DNA of 64,000 bases, from contig JAUIHI010000005.1 in NCBI GenBank assembly GCA_030432295.1, positions 186,001 through 250,000 of the forward strand, written 5' to 3'. A model generated the notes under the pieces. It did no database searches. It was not told where the DNA came from and saw only the letters and a list, made by a program, of their open reading frames with translations. Source of the stretch: Anaerolineae bacterium. Its GTDB lineage: Bacteria; Chloroflexota; Anaerolineae; Caldilineales; Caldilineaceae. This document shows positions 37,694 to 45,929 of this stretch, piece after piece (positions within the stretch are counted from its first letter, which is position 1; every line of letters begins with the position of its first letter). Made by a program: the position numbers and the translations under genes.

Positions 37694-38392
37694 ATGCCCA
37701 CACTTTCCCGCATTCTCACCAAAAACCGCATCCTCTGGCTGACCCACATCGGGTCCCTGCTGCCCTTTGCCCTGCTCCTGTGGGACTATTTCACCAACAA
37801 TCTGACGGTGAATCCGATCCAGGACATTACCTTCCGCACGGGCAAACCTGCGCTGGTGCTGCTGGTGCTCTCCCTGGCCGTGACGCCGTTGAACACAATC
37901 TTCGGCTGGCGGGAGATTATCCCGGCCCGCAAATGGTTGGGGCTGTACGCCTGGGGCTATGTGTCGGTCCACTTTCTGGTCTTCATCGGGCTGGACTACG
38001 GCTTCGACTGGGGGCTGCTGTATGAGGCTGTATTTGAGAAGCGCTATGCACTGGTGGGTTTTCTGGCTCTGCTGATTCTGACGCCTCTGGCCCTCACCTC
38101 CACCAAAGGCTGGCAGAAGCGACTGGGCAAAAAGTGGAAGCGGCTGCACCAGTTGGTCTACGCCGCGGGGCTGCTGGGCGTCTTCCACTACCTCTGGCTG
38201 GTGAAATCGGACATTCGGGAGCCGGTCGCCTGGGGTGTGGTCGTCGTGCTGTTGCTGGTGGCGCGGATTCCCCGGGTGCGCAAGGCGCTGGTGGGCTGGC
38301 GGATGCGGTTGACGGGGAAGAATGCGCCGCCGTCTACATCCCGCTCCCAACGACGGGCCGATTCCCGGCGAATCACAACGGGCGAACTGTAG
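37694..38392 (+). CDS. msrQ: Heme membrane subunit of the MsrPQ methionine sulfoxide reductase
   Basis: A 232-aa protein with about six membrane helices (ferric-reductase-like). 'DITFRTGKPALVLLVLSLAV', 'YAWGYVSVHFLVFIGLDYG' and 'RLHQLVYAAGLLGVFHYLW' contain the heme-ligand histidines. It passes electrons from the cytosol or quinone pool to MsrP. It is separated from msrP by a 99-base repeat-filled gap, so it is still probably in the same operon. A terminator follows at 38433. Confidence 0.93.
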   Translation: MPTLSRILTKNRILWLTHIGSLLPFALLLWDYFTNNLTVNPIQDITFRTGKPALVLLVLSLAVTPLNTIFGWREIIPARKWLGLYAWGYVSVHFLVFIGLDYGFDWGLLYEAVFEKRYALVGFLALLILTPLALTSTKGWQKRLGKKWKRLHQLVYAAGLLGVFHYLWLVKSDIREPVAWGVVVVLLLVARIPRVRKALVGWRMRLTGKNAPPSTSRSQRRADSRRITTGEL

Positions 38393-38432
38393 ACCGGCAA
38401 CGGGTCCGGTTCTACCGATAGAATTCTTGCAA

Positions 38433-38469
38433 GACGCCGAGTTTCCAGGAAGGAACTCGGCGTCTTTTT
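38433..38469 (+). terminator. Rho-independent terminator after msrQ
   Basis: The stem GACGCCGAGTT / AACTCGGCGTC (38433-38443 and 38454-38464), loop of 10 bases, is followed by TTTTT. Confidence 0.85.
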
Positions 38470-38599
38470 GTCGGTGGACTGCCAAATCAGTCCACTCAGA
38501 TTGCCTGTCGGCTTGGCGCGAATCGTTTGATCAATAGACTCTTTCTGTTTATACTAATGACATCGCAGACGCTATCTGAGATGGAAAGAAGGTGAAACC

Positions 38600-38989
38600 T
38601 TGAGCACGCAAGTCCTGCTGGATGTCCCTGATGACCTGTACAGCCACGTGAAAAGTGTGGCCGCACGTACGCATCGCGCTGTCACGGATGTACTGCTGGA
38701 TTCGATCGCCGATTCCTTTGCACCCTTTCCCGTCGATCCAAGACGGGCAGAAATGTCCCAAAATGTGGATGCATTCACTGCAATGCACCCGAAACTGGTG
38801 GAAACATATTTGGGAGAAACGGTCGCCATTTGTGATGGTCGTCTGGTGGATCGCGACGCTGATCCCATCGCTCTGCTGCACAGGATTCGTCGCGATTATC
38901 CGAATCGGGTCGTGCTGCGACGCAAAGTCGAAACGATCCCTGAACGCGAGTTGCGCATCCGACATCCGCGTATCACACCAGCCCTATGA
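38600..38989 (+). CDS. Two-part small protein: antitoxin-like N-terminus and DUF5678-like C-terminus
   Basis: A 129-aa protein. Residues 1-45 ('VLLDVPDDLYSHVKSVAART') look like the ribbon-helix-helix-type N-terminus of many antitoxins. Residues 65-125 ('LVETYLGETVAICDGRLVDR' onward) resemble DUF5678, a domain often next to retropepsin-like proteases. The start is TTG, with AAGGTG before it. The stop overlaps the next gene's start by four bases (ATGA), so translation is coupled. Function is inferred, not known. Confidence 0.75.
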   Translation: MSTQVLLDVPDDLYSHVKSVAARTHRAVTDVLLDSIADSFAPFPVDPRRAEMSQNVDAFTAMHPKLVETYLGETVAICDGRLVDRDADPIALLHRIRRDYPNRVVLRRKVETIPERELRIRHPRITPAL

Positions 38990-39381
38990 ACCGCTTACTC
39001 TCCTATGATTACAACCGGGACTATTTTCCATCTGCCCCGTTTATTCCCATCACAATCGACGGATATGATGACAGCAAATCATCTATCACCATTCCCGCGT
39101 TTGTGGACACGGGAGCGGATGGCACACTTCTGCCCCGGGACATTCTGACAGCCGTTGGCGCTGAATACGAAGATACTGTACTCCTGCGGGGTACAACCGG
39201 AATTGCCCAACGATTGGATCGATATACCGTGCGTATACGGGTTGGCGAAGTGACAATCTTTTCGGTGGCAGCGGTGGCTGTTGCTCCGGGCACTGAGCCA
39301 ATCATCGGTCGCGATGTGCTGAATTACCTCGTATTGACGCTCAACGGTGTGATCGGCATCGTCGAGATCGAACTGGAATAG
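38986..39381 (+). CDS. Retropepsin-like aspartic protease
   Basis: A 131-aa protein. 'PAFVDTGADGTLLP' is the catalytic DTGA motif of single-domain retroviral-type aspartic proteases, which act as dimers; 'EPIIGRDVLNYLVLTLNG' is the matching hydrophobic-Gly (flap/dimer core) end. There is no signal peptide, so it is cytosolic. It is coupled to the antitoxin-like gene by ATGA overlap and followed 8 bases later by a CopG-type antitoxin gene, so it may belong to a regulated protease module. Confidence 0.88.
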   Translation: MNRLLSYDYNRDYFPSAPFIPITIDGYDDSKSSITIPAFVDTGADGTLLPRDILTAVGAEYEDTVLLRGTTGIAQRLDRYTVRIRVGEVTIFSVAAVAVAPGTEPIIGRDVLNYLVLTLNGVIGIVEIELE

Positions 39382-39389
39382 ACGCCGGT

Positions 39390-39608
39390 ATGGACGCAAG
39401 TAACCTGAGCAGCATCTCAAAGACACAAAGTCTGGAAGAAATGGGCGAGTTCTGGGACACCCACGACTTCACCGAATTCGACACAGATAAACCCGACATT
39501 GAGTTCACGGTTGCTAATACTGTGGCGATTGAGGCGGAATTGTTCCTGGCAGTAGAAGATCAGGCACGCCGCCGGGGTGTTTCGGCGGAGACGCTTGTCA
39601 ATCTTTGA
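39390..39608 (+). CDS. CopG-family antitoxin-like protein
   Basis: A 72-aa protein. 'LEEMGEFWDTHDFTEFD' is the characteristic start of CopG-type antitoxins of type II modules, followed by a ribbon-helix-helix ('AIEAELFLAVEDQARRRGVS'). No toxin gene (BrnT-like or other) is next to it; the downstream DNA is hairpins and the convergent protease gene. It may serve the retropepsin-like gene or be an orphan. Confidence 0.82.
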   Translation: MDASNLSSISKTQSLEEMGEFWDTHDFTEFDTDKPDIEFTVANTVAIEAELFLAVEDQARRRGVSAETLVNL

Positions 39609-39623
39609 CTACAGGAGAAGCTG

Positions 39624-39758
39624 GCGGAACAAACAGCGTTGGCCTCGACCTAACACTGTTTGTTCCGCAAAAAGAAGCGGGCGCATCTGAGTGGATGCGC
39701 CCGCTTCTTTCATTCTGTGTCGATGAGAAGCTGAGTTTCTCGGAAGAAACTCAGCTTC
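39624..39758. terminator. Three consecutive hairpins between antitoxin and C25 genes
   Basis: Hairpin 1: GCGGAACAAACAG (39624-39636) with complement 39656-39668. Hairpin 2: AAAGAAGCGGGCGCATC (39671-39687) with complement 39694-39710; A- and T-rich ends make it a bidirectional terminator. Hairpin 3: GAAGCTGAGTTTC (39727-39739) with complement 39746-39758. All arms are perfect. Confidence 0.85.
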
Positions 39759-39764
39759 CCGCGT

Positions 39765-42700
39765 CTAGCGTTGCACCGATGGCAGGAACAACTGCATCAT
39801 CGGGGCTGTCGGCTCTGTATCACTCAGCACTGCGAACTCGGTGAAGTGGTCCAGTTTGATGAGCAGGCATTTGCCGCTCTCATCCACTTTCGTCTCCACA
39901 GAGACCCACTCCTGCTTTTCCTCGTCGAAGAAGGCCAGTTCCAGCTTGGACAGATCGCCCAGTTCCTTCAATTCCTCGTCGCTGAAACAGACTTTCATCA
40001 CATAGAAATCCTTGAACTGGCGGATTTCGTTGCCTTCGCCATCACTGGCATCCAGCAGGAAGCTGCGCAGGGGTGTCTTGCCTTCGGGCACATCCACCGT
40101 CGGGCTGACCAGTTGTGTGTGTACAATTTCCACATTCTCGTCCACCGCGTTGGGCGGGAACTCGATGGAGAAGTCCTTCTCTTCGTTCTCCACTGTGCCG
40201 CCCTGCTCCGGTGTCACATCACCGCTGCTCTGCTTCACTCGCAGTTTCACAGGAATCGCACCGGGCATATCCGCCGAGAACTGCACCGGGCGGTCCGGGT
40301 CCCGGTCGCCCAGGAAGCGCAGGCTGGCCATGCCCTTTTCCACAGTGCCGCGGGCCAAGGGTTTGCCGTCCTGCAGAGCGGTGATGACCGCGCCTTCGAC
40401 CGGGTATTTCAGATTCCACAGCTTCGGCCCCACCCGTTCGGGGATGGCCTCCCACGGCAGGATGATGCGGTAGGGGTTGCCCGTGTGCATCTCCATTGTG
40501 GCGTCGCCGAAGAGGTGATAGATGATCAGATTCGTGTCCGAGGCGCTGGTGCTGACGCTGCCTGCGGTCTGGGCCACGCCGATCTGGCTGACCATATAGG
40601 CCTTGCCGTAGTTCAGGATGTCGCCCAGGCGGGTGATGGATGTGCTGCCGCCGTAGCCAGGCACAACATCGCTCCAGGTGGCGTCGAAGAGGCCACGGGT
40701 CAGGGCGTTGTTGGCCCAGGTCGGGCTGACCCGGCTGGCTGCAAAGACACCCGCCGCGCCGCCGTCGGCCAGCCGCAGAATCTGCTCGGCGAAGTAGCTG
40801 CCGTTGGCCCCGCTGCCGTCGGTCTCGTTGTCGAAGTAGCCGGTGGAGCAGTTGATGCTGTAGACAACCGGCGTCTTGCTGCCGTTGGTCAGGCTGCCCA
40901 GATTGCTTGCCTTGAAGCTGGGGTGTGCCCAACCGCTGGAGGAGCCGTGATCCCGGTGGTAGACCAGTGTCCGGCCCGCGTTGATGGCGTCGATCACATC
41001 GGTGGTGTCGCCGTCCCAGGCATAGCCGCTGGCTGCGTTCAGGTCCGCGGGCAGGCCGGCGCCGTTGTAGTAGTAGTTGGGCGTGTCGCTGGCCCCTGCG
41101 TTCGTCGTGTAGATGCGTTCGACGGTGTAGCTGCCCATCAGCTCGTCCCGCACGAACTCGGAAGTCTCCACATAGCCCCGTGAGTCCGTGCCAGCACTGG
41201 CTCCACTCTTGCAGCATTGGAAGTAGCTGGCAAAGGTCATTGTGTTGTAGTAGCTGGCATTGGGCGCAAAGAAGAGTGGCGGGTGCTGCTCGTAGGCCAC
41301 GATTTTATTGACCACTGCCTCGGCTTCCGCCAGTGTGTCCACCGGAATGCGGCCCAGGGCCAGGTCGGGCATCAGATCCGCGTTGTCCATCAGACTGTAG
41401 TCCAGGTCCGTGCCCGCTGCTGCTGTGTAGGCTGTGGCCCGGTAGAAGGGCGGGATGTGTTCGGCGTCGCCGATCAGGTCCACGTAGGACGGACGCACCA
41501 GACAGTTGTTGTATTTGTTGCGGATGTACTCCTGAATCTCCTCTTTGGTCACGCCTGCTTTGCCTGCGCCGGTCTCGACCACAAGGGTGGAGATGCCGCT
41601 CGTGCGCTTCCAGTCGGCCAGTGTATCAGCCGCGCTGCGGAAGGCCGGGTCGGTGATGATCAGCAGCTCGGCACCGATGCAGATGATGGGCGTGGGAATC
41701 TTCCACTCGCCGACAAAGATCGGCACGGCCTGCCAGTTGAGCACCTGGGCGTAGGCCGACTTGCCACTCTCGAAGGGATTGCGACTTTCGCCGGGCAGGA
41801 AGATGCCCTCGCCGCCCTCGAACTGCACCCGGAATTCCAGGCCGGTGTAGGAGATGTAGCGCTGACTAGCCGGGTCATACTGGCCCGCGGCCATCTCGAT
41901 CTGCACCAGGTCCAGGTCCCGCATCCGTCCCACTTTCTGGATGCTCACCGGCTGGGCAGGGAAGGGATCCTTGCCGCTATAGGCTTCTTTGTCAAAGGCC
42001 CAATCCGGGTTGCCAAAGACAGACTCATCCGGTTCGCCCTTGTCGTGGGGCGGATCGCCAGGGTGATTGCCTTCCACCAGGCCGCTGTCCACGGGGGAGG
42101 GCTGGCTGGGGTAGAGGATCACTTGGGTCATGGACGTGCCGGCCTGCACCTTCGGTGTTTCCAGCATCACTTTTGCGCCCCGGGGCACAGCCAGCAGACG
42201 GCGATAGACAGGCACGTCGGGCTGACCGATTCCAGCGGTGTTGGGTTCCAGACCAGAGATGCCCAGTTGGACGTATTGGCGCTGGTCGCCGCCGATGGCG
42301 GGCCAGTATTGCAGGGGCGGGAACTGAATCTGGGCGGCAAAGCCTTTGTTGTCGGATTGGACAACTTCGACAGCTACCTGATCCTTGCGATTGAAGACAG
42401 GTCGGTCCACATTCGTCTGGCCTTCCTGGCGCAGCTTGACAGAGACCGCACCGGGCAGGCTGGCCGACCACTCCACTGGCTTGCCCTTCTCCGGCTCCTG
42501 GACGAATTTGACGTCCGCTTTGCCGTCCTGCACAACCGCACGCCCGATGGGCAGGCCGTCTTGCAGAGCGGTCAGCGTCGCCCCGTTGACCGGATATCGT
42601 ACCCGCCAGCCAAAGGGATTGTACTCTTCGATGATGAAAATCTCGCCCAGCCAGAATTTGTGGGGGTCTTTCGTCCACATTTCCATTGTGGGGTCGCCGT

Positions 42701-45700
42701 AGACGTGATAGAGAATCACATCCATTGTGGCGCTGTTGGTGCTGACGCTACCCGCGGTCTGGGCCACGCCGATCTGCCCCCACAGGTAGCCTTTGGCGTA
42801 GTTGAGAATGTCGCCCAGGCGGGTGATGGAGGTGTTGCTGCCTTCTGGGGCTGTGCCCGGCCAGGTGGCGTCGAAGAGGCCACGAGAGAGGGCGCTGTTG
42901 GCCCAGGTCGGGCTGTTGCGCACATCGCCGATGATGCCCACCGCGCCGTCTTCCTGGCGCAGGAGAGATTCGGCCCAGTAGACGCCGCCGTTGCTGGTGC
43001 TGTAGGTGTAGTCGTCGTTGGCCGCGCTGCGGGTTTCGTTGTCAAAAAGGCCCGTGGCGCAATTGATGCTGTAGACCACCGGTGTCAGGTTGCCATTGTT
43101 CAGGCTGCCGAAGTTGCCCGTGCTGAAGCTGGGGTCGCCCCAGCGGGTGATGGAGCCGTGATCCCGATGGAAGATCAGGAAGTTGCCGTCGTTGAAGGCA
43201 TCGACCACATCGTTGGTGTCGCCGTCCCAGGCAAAGCCGCTGCCATCCCGCAGGTCCACAGGCAGGCGTGCGCCGTTGTTGTAGTAGTCGGGCGTCGTGT
43301 CCCGTGTGCCTGCGTTGTAGTAGCCGCTCTTTGTGGGATCGTCGTGATAGTCGTCGTCGCTGGTGTAGATGCGCTCGACGGTATAGCCTTCGCTGGTCAT
43401 TTCGTCCCGCACGAACTCGGCGGTTTCGGTGAAGCTGCGCACGGCCGTGCCGTCGTTGGCCGCGCTGGCGCTGCAACACTGGAAGTAGGCGGCGAAGGCC
43501 ATCTTGCTGTAGAAGCTGTGATTGTTGGGCGGGTTCTGCTCGTAGTTGACGATTTTGTTGATAACCGTCTCGGCGTCGGCCAGGGTGTCCACAGGAATGC
43601 GGCCCAGGGCCAGGTCGGGCAGAATGTCGCCCGCATCCATCAGCGAATATTCCAGGTCCGAGCCGGGGGTATCGGCAAAGTCGTCGGCTGTGGTGGCTGT
43701 GCCGTTGTCGTCCCAAGTGATCACCCGGTTGTACCAGGGCGGGATGTGTTCGGCGTCGCCCAGTAGCAGAACGTAGCTGGGGCGGATCAGACAGTCGTCG
43801 TACTTCTTTTCGATGGTGGCTTTGATCTCGACGGCAGTCGTGCCCGCCTTGCCTGCGCCGGTTTCCAGCACAGTCGTGGAGATGCCTTTGGAGCGCTTCC
43901 AGGTGGCTAATGTATCAGCCGCCGTGCGGAAGGCCGGGTCGGTGATGATAATATATTCGGTACCGATGCAGAGCCACGAAGTGATGTCGCCGGGCAGGAT
44001 GAATTTGTCCAGAATCCCGTAGTTCAGGACCAGACCTTCCACACCGGTCGTCTGTTTGTTGAAGGGGTTCAGGTCTCGCTCTGTGCGGAAGTAGCCCTTG
44101 CCGCCCTCAAACCGGAAGGCCACATCTACGCTGTCGAAGAGTGTGAGTATCTGCTTGGCCGGGTCGTATTGGCCCGCGGCAATCGATACCTGCCAGAGTT
44201 CCAGATCGCGCATTGTACCCAGCCGGTGAATCTCTACCGGGTTTTCGGGGAAGAGCTTTTCGCTGGCGTAGGCTTTCTCGTCAAAGGCGAAGGGGCGATC
44301 CCGGAAGTCGTCCACCGGGAATTCGTCCTTCTCCTGGCTGGCCGCCACGTCGGCAGGTTCAGGCTGGACAGGGGCCAAGAGCAGGCTATTGCGCTGACGC
44401 ACGTTGGGTGTAGATTTGTCCAGCAGCAGCGTTGCGCCCACAGGCACGGCAATCAGCCGGGTGTAGATGGGCACATTGGGCAGACCGGGACGCATACCCG
44501 CCTGGTCGATGCCGGGCACACCCACTTGGCCGAATTCCTGCTTCTCCGGGCCTTGCACCTTCCAGAAGTGGGCTTCGGGGAACTTGAACAGACCCTGCAA
44601 GCCTTTGTCGTCGTTCTGGTCCAGTTGGATGCGCACAAATTCTTCCCGATTGACAATCGGGAATTTGGGCGGATCGTAGCTGGGCGGGGTGGCTTCCTCC
44701 GGCACGATGGGTGCTGATTTGTCATCGGAGAAGTAGAGGTCGTCGATGACTTCGCTGAGTGTCGTGTCGCCATAGTTCAGTGTCACACGGGCAATGCGGC
44801 CCGCGCTGTCGTACATCCCGATAAACTCGGTGTAGGCTTCGGGCACGGGAGTGTTCGTCACCTGGCAGATGACATTGCCCGCGGCGTCGTAGCCCACCAT
44901 TGCGCCGGGTAGATTATTGGTTTCACCGTTGCCCATATAGAAACCCACGTGGGCCTTCGGGCTGTCAAACCAGAATGTCATCGGGACGTTGGCACTGGTG
45001 TTGGGGTGCACAGCGTCGTTGATCGCCACATTCGGCGCAGAACGGGCCGTCGTTGGGTCGGCTGTGCGGTCGCCGTAGGTGATGACCCGTGTCTCTTTGT
45101 TGTCCATAAAGTGCAGGCCGTGGGCCGGGACGTAATGTTCGCCAATCGTCACGGCGTCGTCCAGATCGTCGAAATTCACCAGCACTCGGTTGGGAATCTG
45201 ATTTTCGTGGAAGAGTTCCACGCAGGAGCCGGGCTGGATGGGCGGGTTCTTGTCGCCGGAAAAGGTCAGGTTGTCGATAGACTCGGAAAGCACTGTGTCG
45301 CCGTAGTCCAGTTCCACCCGTGCGATGCGAACTGCGCTGTCATAGACGCCGATGAAGAGCGGATGGGAGGCGGGCACGGGCGAGAATGTCTCGGTGCAGA
45401 GCAGGTTGCCCGCCCGGTCATAGGCCCGCAGAATACCGCCCAGGTCCGGCCCATTGCCCTGGCTGCCCTTGCCGTTGCCGGGGCGCATGCCCACATAGGC
45501 CTGGTCCGTATCAAAGCGGATGACCATCGGCACGTTGGCGCTGGTGTTGGGGGATTGGGCCGAGTTGGTCGCCACATTGGGCTCGGAGAAGGACTTGCCC
45601 ACGTCGTTGGGGTGGTCGGCGTAGGTGATGGCCCGTGTCGTCTGGTTGTCGTCAAAGACGACGCCGTGGGCAGCCTGGTAGTGGTTGCCCAATGTAAATG

Positions 45701-45929
45701 CGTTGGACAGTTCGTCGAAGTGCAGGACTGTCTTGCTGGGGACCTGCGCTTCGTTGGTGATGCGGACACAGGTGGCGGCTGCCTCCTGCATTGCCCGCTG
45801 GGGTGTAGCCGCCACTGGTGCGGCGGACGCGGGCAGGGCGCTGAGCAATGCAGAGAGCATCAGCGCCATCACCAGCATATAGGAGAGAAATCTTTCTCGC
45901 CATCGGTGTCGGTGAATGGGTGTTGTCAT
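39765..45929 (-). CDS. Giant secreted protein with two peptidase C25 (gingipain-like) domains
   Basis: A 2054-aa protein. A signal peptide (residues 1-36) is followed by two related beta domains ('NFDDLDDAVTIGEHY' type), then two copies of a C25 module about 737 residues apart. Each has 'GDAEHIPP', 'PDLALGRIPVDTL', HRDHGS and 'PVVYSINC'. Predicted catalytic pairs are His924/Cys957 and His1661/Cys1694, each 33 residues apart as in RgpB (211/244). The end has a beta domain and tail FLPSVQR. It is likely a surface or released cysteine protease. Confidence 0.9.
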   Translation of the reverse strand: MTTPIHRHRWRERFLSYMLVMALMLSALLSALPASAAPVAATPQRAMQEAAATCVRITNEAQVPSKTVLHFDELSNAFTLGNHYQAAHGVVFDDNQTTRAITYADHPNDVGKSFSEPNVATNSAQSPNTSANVPMVIRFDTDQAYVGMRPGNGKGSQGNGPDLGGILRAYDRAGNLLCTETFSPVPASHPLFIGVYDSAVRIARVELDYGDTVLSESIDNLTFSGDKNPPIQPGSCVELFHENQIPNRVLVNFDDLDDAVTIGEHYVPAHGLHFMDNKETRVITYGDRTADPTTARSAPNVAINDAVHPNTSANVPMTFWFDSPKAHVGFYMGNGETNNLPGAMVGYDAAGNVICQVTNTPVPEAYTEFIGMYDSAGRIARVTLNYGDTTLSEVIDDLYFSDDKSAPIVPEEATPPSYDPPKFPIVNREEFVRIQLDQNDDKGLQGLFKFPEAHFWKVQGPEKQEFGQVGVPGIDQAGMRPGLPNVPIYTRLIAVPVGATLLLDKSTPNVRQRNSLLLAPVQPEPADVAASQEKDEFPVDDFRDRPFAFDEKAYASEKLFPENPVEIHRLGTMRDLELWQVSIAAGQYDPAKQILTLFDSVDVAFRFEGGKGYFRTERDLNPFNKQTTGVEGLVLNYGILDKFILPGDITSWLCIGTEYIIITDPAFRTAADTLATWKRSKGISTTVLETGAGKAGTTAVEIKATIEKKYDDCLIRPSYVLLLGDAEHIPPWYNRVITWDDNGTATTADDFADTPGSDLEYSLMDAGDILPDLALGRIPVDTLADAETVINKIVNYEQNPPNNHSFYSKMAFAAYFQCCSASAANDGTAVRSFTETAEFVRDEMTSEGYTVERIYTSDDDYHDDPTKSGYYNAGTRDTTPDYYNNGARLPVDLRDGSGFAWDGDTNDVVDAFNDGNFLIFHRDHGSITRWGDPSFSTGNFGSLNNGNLTPVVYSINCATGLFDNETRSAANDDYTYSTSNGGVYWAESLLRQEDGAVGIIGDVRNSPTWANSALSRGLFDATWPGTAPEGSNTSITRLGDILNYAKGYLWGQIGVAQTAGSVSTNSATMDVILYHVYGDPTMEMWTKDPHKFWLGEIFIIEEYNPFGWRVRYPVNGATLTALQDGLPIGRAVVQDGKADVKFVQEPEKGKPVEWSASLPGAVSVKLRQEGQTNVDRPVFNRKDQVAVEVVQSDNKGFAAQIQFPPLQYWPAIGGDQRQYVQLGISGLEPNTAGIGQPDVPVYRRLLAVPRGAKVMLETPKVQAGTSMTQVILYPSQPSPVDSGLVEGNHPGDPPHDKGEPDESVFGNPDWAFDKEAYSGKDPFPAQPVSIQKVGRMRDLDLVQIEMAAGQYDPASQRYISYTGLEFRVQFEGGEGIFLPGESRNPFESGKSAYAQVLNWQAVPIFVGEWKIPTPIICIGAELLIITDPAFRSAADTLADWKRTSGISTLVVETGAGKAGVTKEEIQEYIRNKYNNCLVRPSYVDLIGDAEHIPPFYRATAYTAAAGTDLDYSLMDNADLMPDLALGRIPVDTLAEAEAVVNKIVAYEQHPPLFFAPNASYYNTMTFASYFQCCKSGASAGTDSRGYVETSEFVRDELMGSYTVERIYTTNAGASDTPNYYYNGAGLPADLNAASGYAWDGDTTDVIDAINAGRTLVYHRDHGSSSGWAHPSFKASNLGSLTNGSKTPVVYSINCSTGYFDNETDGSGANGSYFAEQILRLADGGAAGVFAASRVSPTWANNALTRGLFDATWSDVVPGYGGSTSITRLGDILNYGKAYMVSQIGVAQTAGSVSTSASDTNLIIYHLFGDATMEMHTGNPYRIILPWEAIPERVGPKLWNLKYPVEGAVITALQDGKPLARGTVEKGMASLRFLGDRDPDRPVQFSADMPGAIPVKLRVKQSSGDVTPEQGGTVENEEKDFSIEFPPNAVDENVEIVHTQLVSPTVDVPEGKTPLRSFLLDASDGEGNEIRQFKDFYVMKVCFSDEELKELGDLSKLELAFFDEEKQEWVSVETKVDESGKCLLIKLDHFTEFAVLSDTEPTAPMMQLFLPSVQR

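Follow-up and report, generated by a model that had tools for sequence, protein, structure and literature searches.

Positions 38600 to 39381 of the window (the whole analysed stretch of 64,000 nucleotides from an Anaerolineae bacterium, contig JAUIHI010000005.1) hold two overlapping genes, encoding an antitoxin-like protein and a single-domain retropepsin-like aspartic protease, which on balance probably form a toxin-antitoxin (TA)-like module; the protease would be the effector that inhibits growth, restrained by the C-terminal half of its partner, and the N-terminal half of the partner would autoregulate the operon. The pair itself, its recurrence, the swapping of partner domains, one-sided decay, presence or absence of the whole as a cassette and intact catalytic residues are read directly from the sequences. 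Layout, domain swapping, obligate pairing and one-sided decay are features by which type II TA modules are recognised in genomes, and their combination around the protease makes a TA-like reading the most likely one. The features of the locus are as follows.

38322 to 39670: cassette of approximately 1.35 kb, replaced by approximately 70 bases in a genome of the same genus (G005, contig C40)
38527 to 38555, forward strand: sigma-70-like candidate promoter TTGATC-17-TATACT, 45 bases 5' of the partner start (motif scan)
38600 to 38989, forward strand: partner (antitoxin-like) gene, 129 amino acids, with RHH/CopG-like N-terminus, DUF5678 and conserved C-terminal tail
38600 to 38719, forward strand: RHH-like N-terminal segment of the partner, residues 1-40 (profile, AF2 helices, Foldseek)
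38792 to 38917, forward strand: DUF5678 of the partner, residues 65-106 (Pfam)
38948 to 38986, forward strand: C-terminal tail of the partner, ELRIRHPRITPAL, which represents the family motif hRhxSPRL here (alignment, tail-only partners)
38986 to 38989, forward strand: ATGA, overlap of partner stop and protease start (translational coupling)
38986 to 39381, forward strand: retropepsin-like aspartic protease, single domain, 131 amino acids (Pfam, profile, AF2)
39106 to 39120, forward strand: active-site motif DTGAD of the protease, residues 41-45 (alignment)
39390 to 39608, forward strand: CopG_antitoxin (PF12441) pseudogene, ORF of 72 amino acids, TGA at 39606-39608 (profile)
39671 to 39710, forward strand: strong stem-loop terminator, where the flanking sequence common to this locus and the empty site restarts

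The sequence-only reading had described a DUF5678-like gene with an antitoxin-like N-terminus that overlaps by ATGA with a DTGA aspartic protease, and both ORFs were confirmed at their positions. The partner gene starts with TTG at 38600, immediately preceded by the ribosome binding site AGAAGG. The sigma-70-like motif, found once against 0.7 expected in shuffled sequences, is suggestive of a promoter of the pair. The surroundings in the window are metabolic (molybdopterin oxidoreductase, MsrQ-like protein, C25 peptidase). The protein encoded at 39765-45929 on the reverse strand (2054 amino acids) matches Peptidase_C25 (gingipain-type) twice and the C25 propeptide twice, apparently through a tandem duplication within the protein.

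A CopG-type antitoxin without a toxin had also been placed 8 bases downstream of the protease. The position and the lack of an adjacent toxin stand; the gene itself is a truncated pseudogene, as its similarity to the family continues through an in-frame TGA (profile positions 5-79 of 79 aligned with the stop masked, with one internal TGA) and extends towards a stop at 39651-39653. With a domain match below the cut-off and interrupted by this TGA, the complete CopG_antitoxin domain and adjacent toxin of the BrnA/CopG type were not found here. In seven related genomes the other CopG genes all lie away from the protease loci. The CopG gene was ruled out as a third component of the module, being a pseudogene that does not recur beside the examined paralogues.

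The window protease scored above the Pfam cut-offs for Asp_protease_2, gag-asp_proteas and RVP and below that for TIGR03698 (31 vs 57 bits), and its family profile matched HIV-1 protease at 1.5e-10. The AF2 model (pLDDT 95.4) has Rickettsia APRc (5c9f, TM 0.75) as its nearest structural neighbour, together with FIV, HTLV-1 and other retroviral proteases, and the protein carries the G-R-D helix motif of the retroviral type. D41 and G43 are invariant among 56 aligned relatives, and the D[T/S]G active site is present in 134 of 136 full-length relatives. The single-domain fold, the D-T/S-G site and the hydrophobic-hydrophobic-Gly motif place the window protease in clan AA; in Pfam, profile and structure comparisons it belonged to no known toxin family.

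Regarding the partner, DUF5678 was found by Pfam at 22.9 bits, slightly below the cut-off of 23.2, and the window protein by itself had no Pfam match to RHH. In a profile of 57 partner relatives the N-terminus matched PDB entries for RHH regulators and antitoxins of the CopG type, including 6iya (4.5e-4) and EndoAI (4me7, 6e-3). The AF2 model (pLDDT 86.6, pTM 0.56) consists of two short helices (11-24 and 28-39), a long helix, a small alpha/beta DUF5678 unit and a less certain tail. RHH proteins ranked first in Foldseek (VapB26 and Arc at the top, with probability 1.0 and E about 0.2, then another VapB and AtaR), with E-values of 0.2 or more, so that this structural match is suggestive only. 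A DNA-binding domain of known antitoxin type is present across the partner family; for the window partner taken singly, the RHH assignment is weak.

The pair is an adjacent, co-directional two-gene operon that is conserved as a whole between genomes. Seven copies of the protease occur in the host genome (6.7 Mb, 61 contigs), six of them directly preceded by a DUF5678 gene and the seventh (contig C58) by a partner of a different antitoxin-like type. Among 64 protease matches, taken from 61 relatives plus a single outside record, a DUF5678 partner was directly upstream in 57; the other seven comprise one contig end, one broken protease with the partner present, two proteases with SPRL-tail partners lacking DUF5678, and three remote proteases of other families. 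Phylum- and class-wide searches agree with this pairing. An automatic rule applied to 136 non-redundant full-length proteases assigned 115 DUF5678 partners and 17 tail-only partners; the remaining four are a contig end (L054), a partner that is present and was missed through a mis-set start (L060), and two partners with a TPRL variant of the tail (L129 and L133). A partner was thus directly upstream in 135 of 135 evaluable proteases (136 minus L054), a count that speaks for one subfamily, as the set was chosen by score against a profile itself made from paired proteases. The proposed check on genomic co-occurrence beyond chance was passed very strongly in both samples.

The gap between partner and protease was 20 nt or less in 129 of 132 measured pairs, with the exact ATGA overlap in 54. 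The protease lies in the reading frame of its partner in only three of the 132, since the overlaps are -4, -1, -8 and -14. In contrast to this subfamily, weaker clan AA proteases of a solitary type (VDSGATYTLLP) from the same phylum have no such partner. These solitary proteases (L189-L192, L193-L195) directly follow a nuoE-like gene in L190-L192, and the family is possibly a housekeeping protease tied to complex I.

The protease family is patchy, occurring in 21 of 61 relatives and in 61 of 298 genomes of the class. In G005 both sides of the window locus are matched collinearly at 82-87% identity, and the approximately 70 bases in place of 38322-39670 mark an empty site: pair, promoter and CopG pseudogene are there or missing together, as one cassette. 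Plasmid and phage collections queried with either protein or with a tail-type protease gave zero matches. Such patchy, cassette-like presence, together with frequent decay, misfits an essential process and weighs against a housekeeping pair, in which the partner would be a chaperone, substrate adaptor or substrate of a physiological processing protease (compare Pseudomonas RimB and RloA). Operon-borne bacterial retropepsin-like proteases with physiological roles do exist (PMC12239564), and multiple paralogues per genome could act on different targets, but antitoxin-type N-termini are atypical of adaptors; this explanation is considered improbable.

DUF5678 was matched by 54 of the 57 partners in a Pfam scan, whereas the N-terminal matches were diverse and in part weak: RHH_1, RHH_5, PSK_trans_fac, PhdYefM, RelB-like and DUF2281, with RHH (PF01402) in 11 members, PSK_trans_fac in six and PhdYefM in six. 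The partner at L233 is a single ORF in which a full VapB_antitoxin domain (44 bits) is fused ahead of RHH-DUF5678. Tail-only partners, which lack DUF5678, have Phd N-termini (44 and 34 bits), AF2212/DUF104-like and DUF2281-like ones and, judged by eye, AbrB/MazE-like ones. The 17 listed partners of this kind, plus the two TPRL variants, have in common the tail hRhxSPRLxxxxQAxDFxxEV, the SPRL core of which also occurs in DUF5678 partners; SP[RQHKS] was found in the tails of 46 of the 115 DUF5678 partners, compared with a mean of five and a maximum of 12 in shuffled tails. As judged from sequence, this exchange of N-terminal antitoxin domains among partners that mostly share DUF5678 and/or the tail, beside a constant protease, is the architecture of type II modules. 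In a mirror-tree comparison the protease correlated at 0.55 and 0.56 with the two partner halves, equal values which show co-inheritance as a unit and are not informative as to which half binds. In several genomes (L093, L105, L106, L110, L111 and L117) a tRNA nucleotidyltransferase-like gene directly follows DUF5678 or is fused to it, a second context by which the domain is not specific to the protease.

Decay of the pair is one-sided. At nine loci from protease queries (L042, L066, L070, L077, L078, L151, L215, L225 and L230) the protease is broken and the partner intact, and the reverse was found at none (p 0.004); among the loci found, no intact protease had lost its partner. Most genomes are fragmented and may contain sequencing errors, which should hit two genes of similar length equally. 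Partner queries added five protease remnants (L098, L109, L115, L118 and L203) and 17 solitary partners with no recognisable protease nearby, and at L280 a second copy has both genes damaged. The earlier suggestion of a TA-like layout with a protease in the toxin position is thereby backed from three sides, namely domain swapping, one-sided decay and the empty site.

The solitary partners could equally reflect a repressor function of the partner itself, which leads to the main rival of the TA-like reading: a switch like that of ImmA and ImmR, in which the partner would be a repressor that the protease cleaves in response to a signal, so that the operon or other genes are derepressed, and the protease itself would be harmless. 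The solitary partners would then naturally be repressors that have lost the switch, and the conserved tail could serve as the cleavage site. The logic is a known one, COG2856 (ImmA) lying beside Xre/ImmR, and proteases are linked with antitoxins in PMC10440598 and in PMC2701414, where Makarova et al. (2009) predicted that COG2856 zinc proteases with Xre are TA-linked. ImmA proteases, however, often carry or are fused to an HTH, whereas here DNA-binding domains are found in the partner only; neither the absence of an intact partnerless protease nor the free exchange of DNA-binding types is explained by a switch alone. Such a switch is regarded as rather unlikely, if worth keeping in mind.

Under the favoured TA-like reading, the protease would be a cytoplasmic enzyme of the retropepsin type, acting as a homodimer with one catalytic Asp contributed by each chain. 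The partner would be the antitoxin: its N-terminal RHH domain, as a dimer, may bind the promoter of the pair, and its C-terminal half (DUF5678 and the SPRL-type tail) would bind the protease and keep it inactive, probably with the tail inserted as a strand into the substrate cleft or the dimer interface. On loss or degradation of the partner, free protease would be expected to cleave one or more cell proteins, by which growth would be slowed or stopped. More tentatively, the locus may represent a large undescribed TA family with a retropepsin-type toxin, whose antitoxins swap RHH, Phd, VapB, AbrB/DUF104-like and DUF2281-like N-termini and whose common SPRL tail blocks the protease by imitating a substrate.

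Single-domain retropepsins are known chiefly from retroviruses; if the TA-like reading is true, they would also have a widespread function within bacterial cells, in the control of growth or in defence. Were the protease the toxin, proteolysis by an aspartic protease would have to be added to RNA cleavage, phosphorylation and acetylation in the list of type II toxin activities, and HIV-protease-like enzymes would have, in the conserved SPRL tail, a natural peptide that inhibits them or serves as their substrate.

A term search of PMC2701414 and of the NetFlax survey PMC10440598 gave no aspartic protease toxin, and no description of DUF5678, or of a retropepsin with toxin-antitoxin, was found in a literature search whose coverage excluded preprints and most subscription papers. 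The nearest catalogued object is the PADLOC candidate PDC-M08, an uncharacterised candidate defence pair (according to PMC12988326, most PDCs lack validation) in which a small gene overlaps that for a single-domain retropepsin-like protease; a small gene with a retropepsin is thus already catalogued in another form. This resemblance, with weak matches of the window protease to PDC-M52B (2.8e-4) and M08B (1.6e-3, 16.5 bits, compared with 1.3e-36 for a genuine M08B), speaks for an anti-phage abortive-infection module, biochemically the same as the TA-like reading except that the protease would be released or activated by infection. Against it, the window neighbourhood is metabolic and has no defence island, and no PADLOC model matches the window partner; infection as the trigger is accordingly given little probability. 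The M08A component has no Pfam match, and a relation to the DUF5678 partner is not demonstrable (hhalign probability 0.6%), so that identity of the window pair with PDC-M08 was rejected on the side of the partner. A clear example of PDC-M08, from Bacillota, is carried by an Alicyclobacillus plasmid, where it neighbours an integrase (1.3e-36 and 1.5e-22). An M08A homologue without an adjoining protease occurs in the host genome (L207, 1501-1797; G000:C45:58806-59057) next to PEP-utiliser-like and cobS-like genes, and further homologues occur in four relatives.

In the ImmA/ImmR, COG2856-Xre and RosmerTA systems a protease likewise adjoins a DNA-binding regulator and is TA-linked (PMC2701414 and PMC10440598), but the ImmA/COG2856 enzyme is a Zn-dependent HEXXH protease serving as antirepressor or antitoxin, whereas the window protease is aspartic, lies in the toxin position and is paired with other DNA-binding types. 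Fold and catalytic motif are shared with the single-domain bacterial clan AA proteases (APRc of Rickettsia, RimB/RloA, COG5550/COG3577 and TIGR03698 clan_AA_DTGF), for which obligate pairing with antitoxin-like genes is not reported in the literature examined. The retroviral proteases of HIV-1, FIV and HTLV-1 resemble the window protease in the DTGAD site, the G-R-D/N helix motif, size and fold; the window protease differs in lying outside a polyprotein or retroelement and in an identity of approximately 20-25% in structural alignments. With the type II TA modules (VapBC, Phd-Doc, MazEF, RelBE) the pair shares two small overlapping genes with the DNA-binding, antitoxin-like gene first, N-termini swapped on a constant, putatively partner-binding C-terminus, multiple copies in a genome, presence or absence as a cassette, and one-sided decay; type II toxins are nucleases, kinases or acetyltransferases, whereas the second gene of the pair encodes a retropepsin-like protease of putative toxicity.
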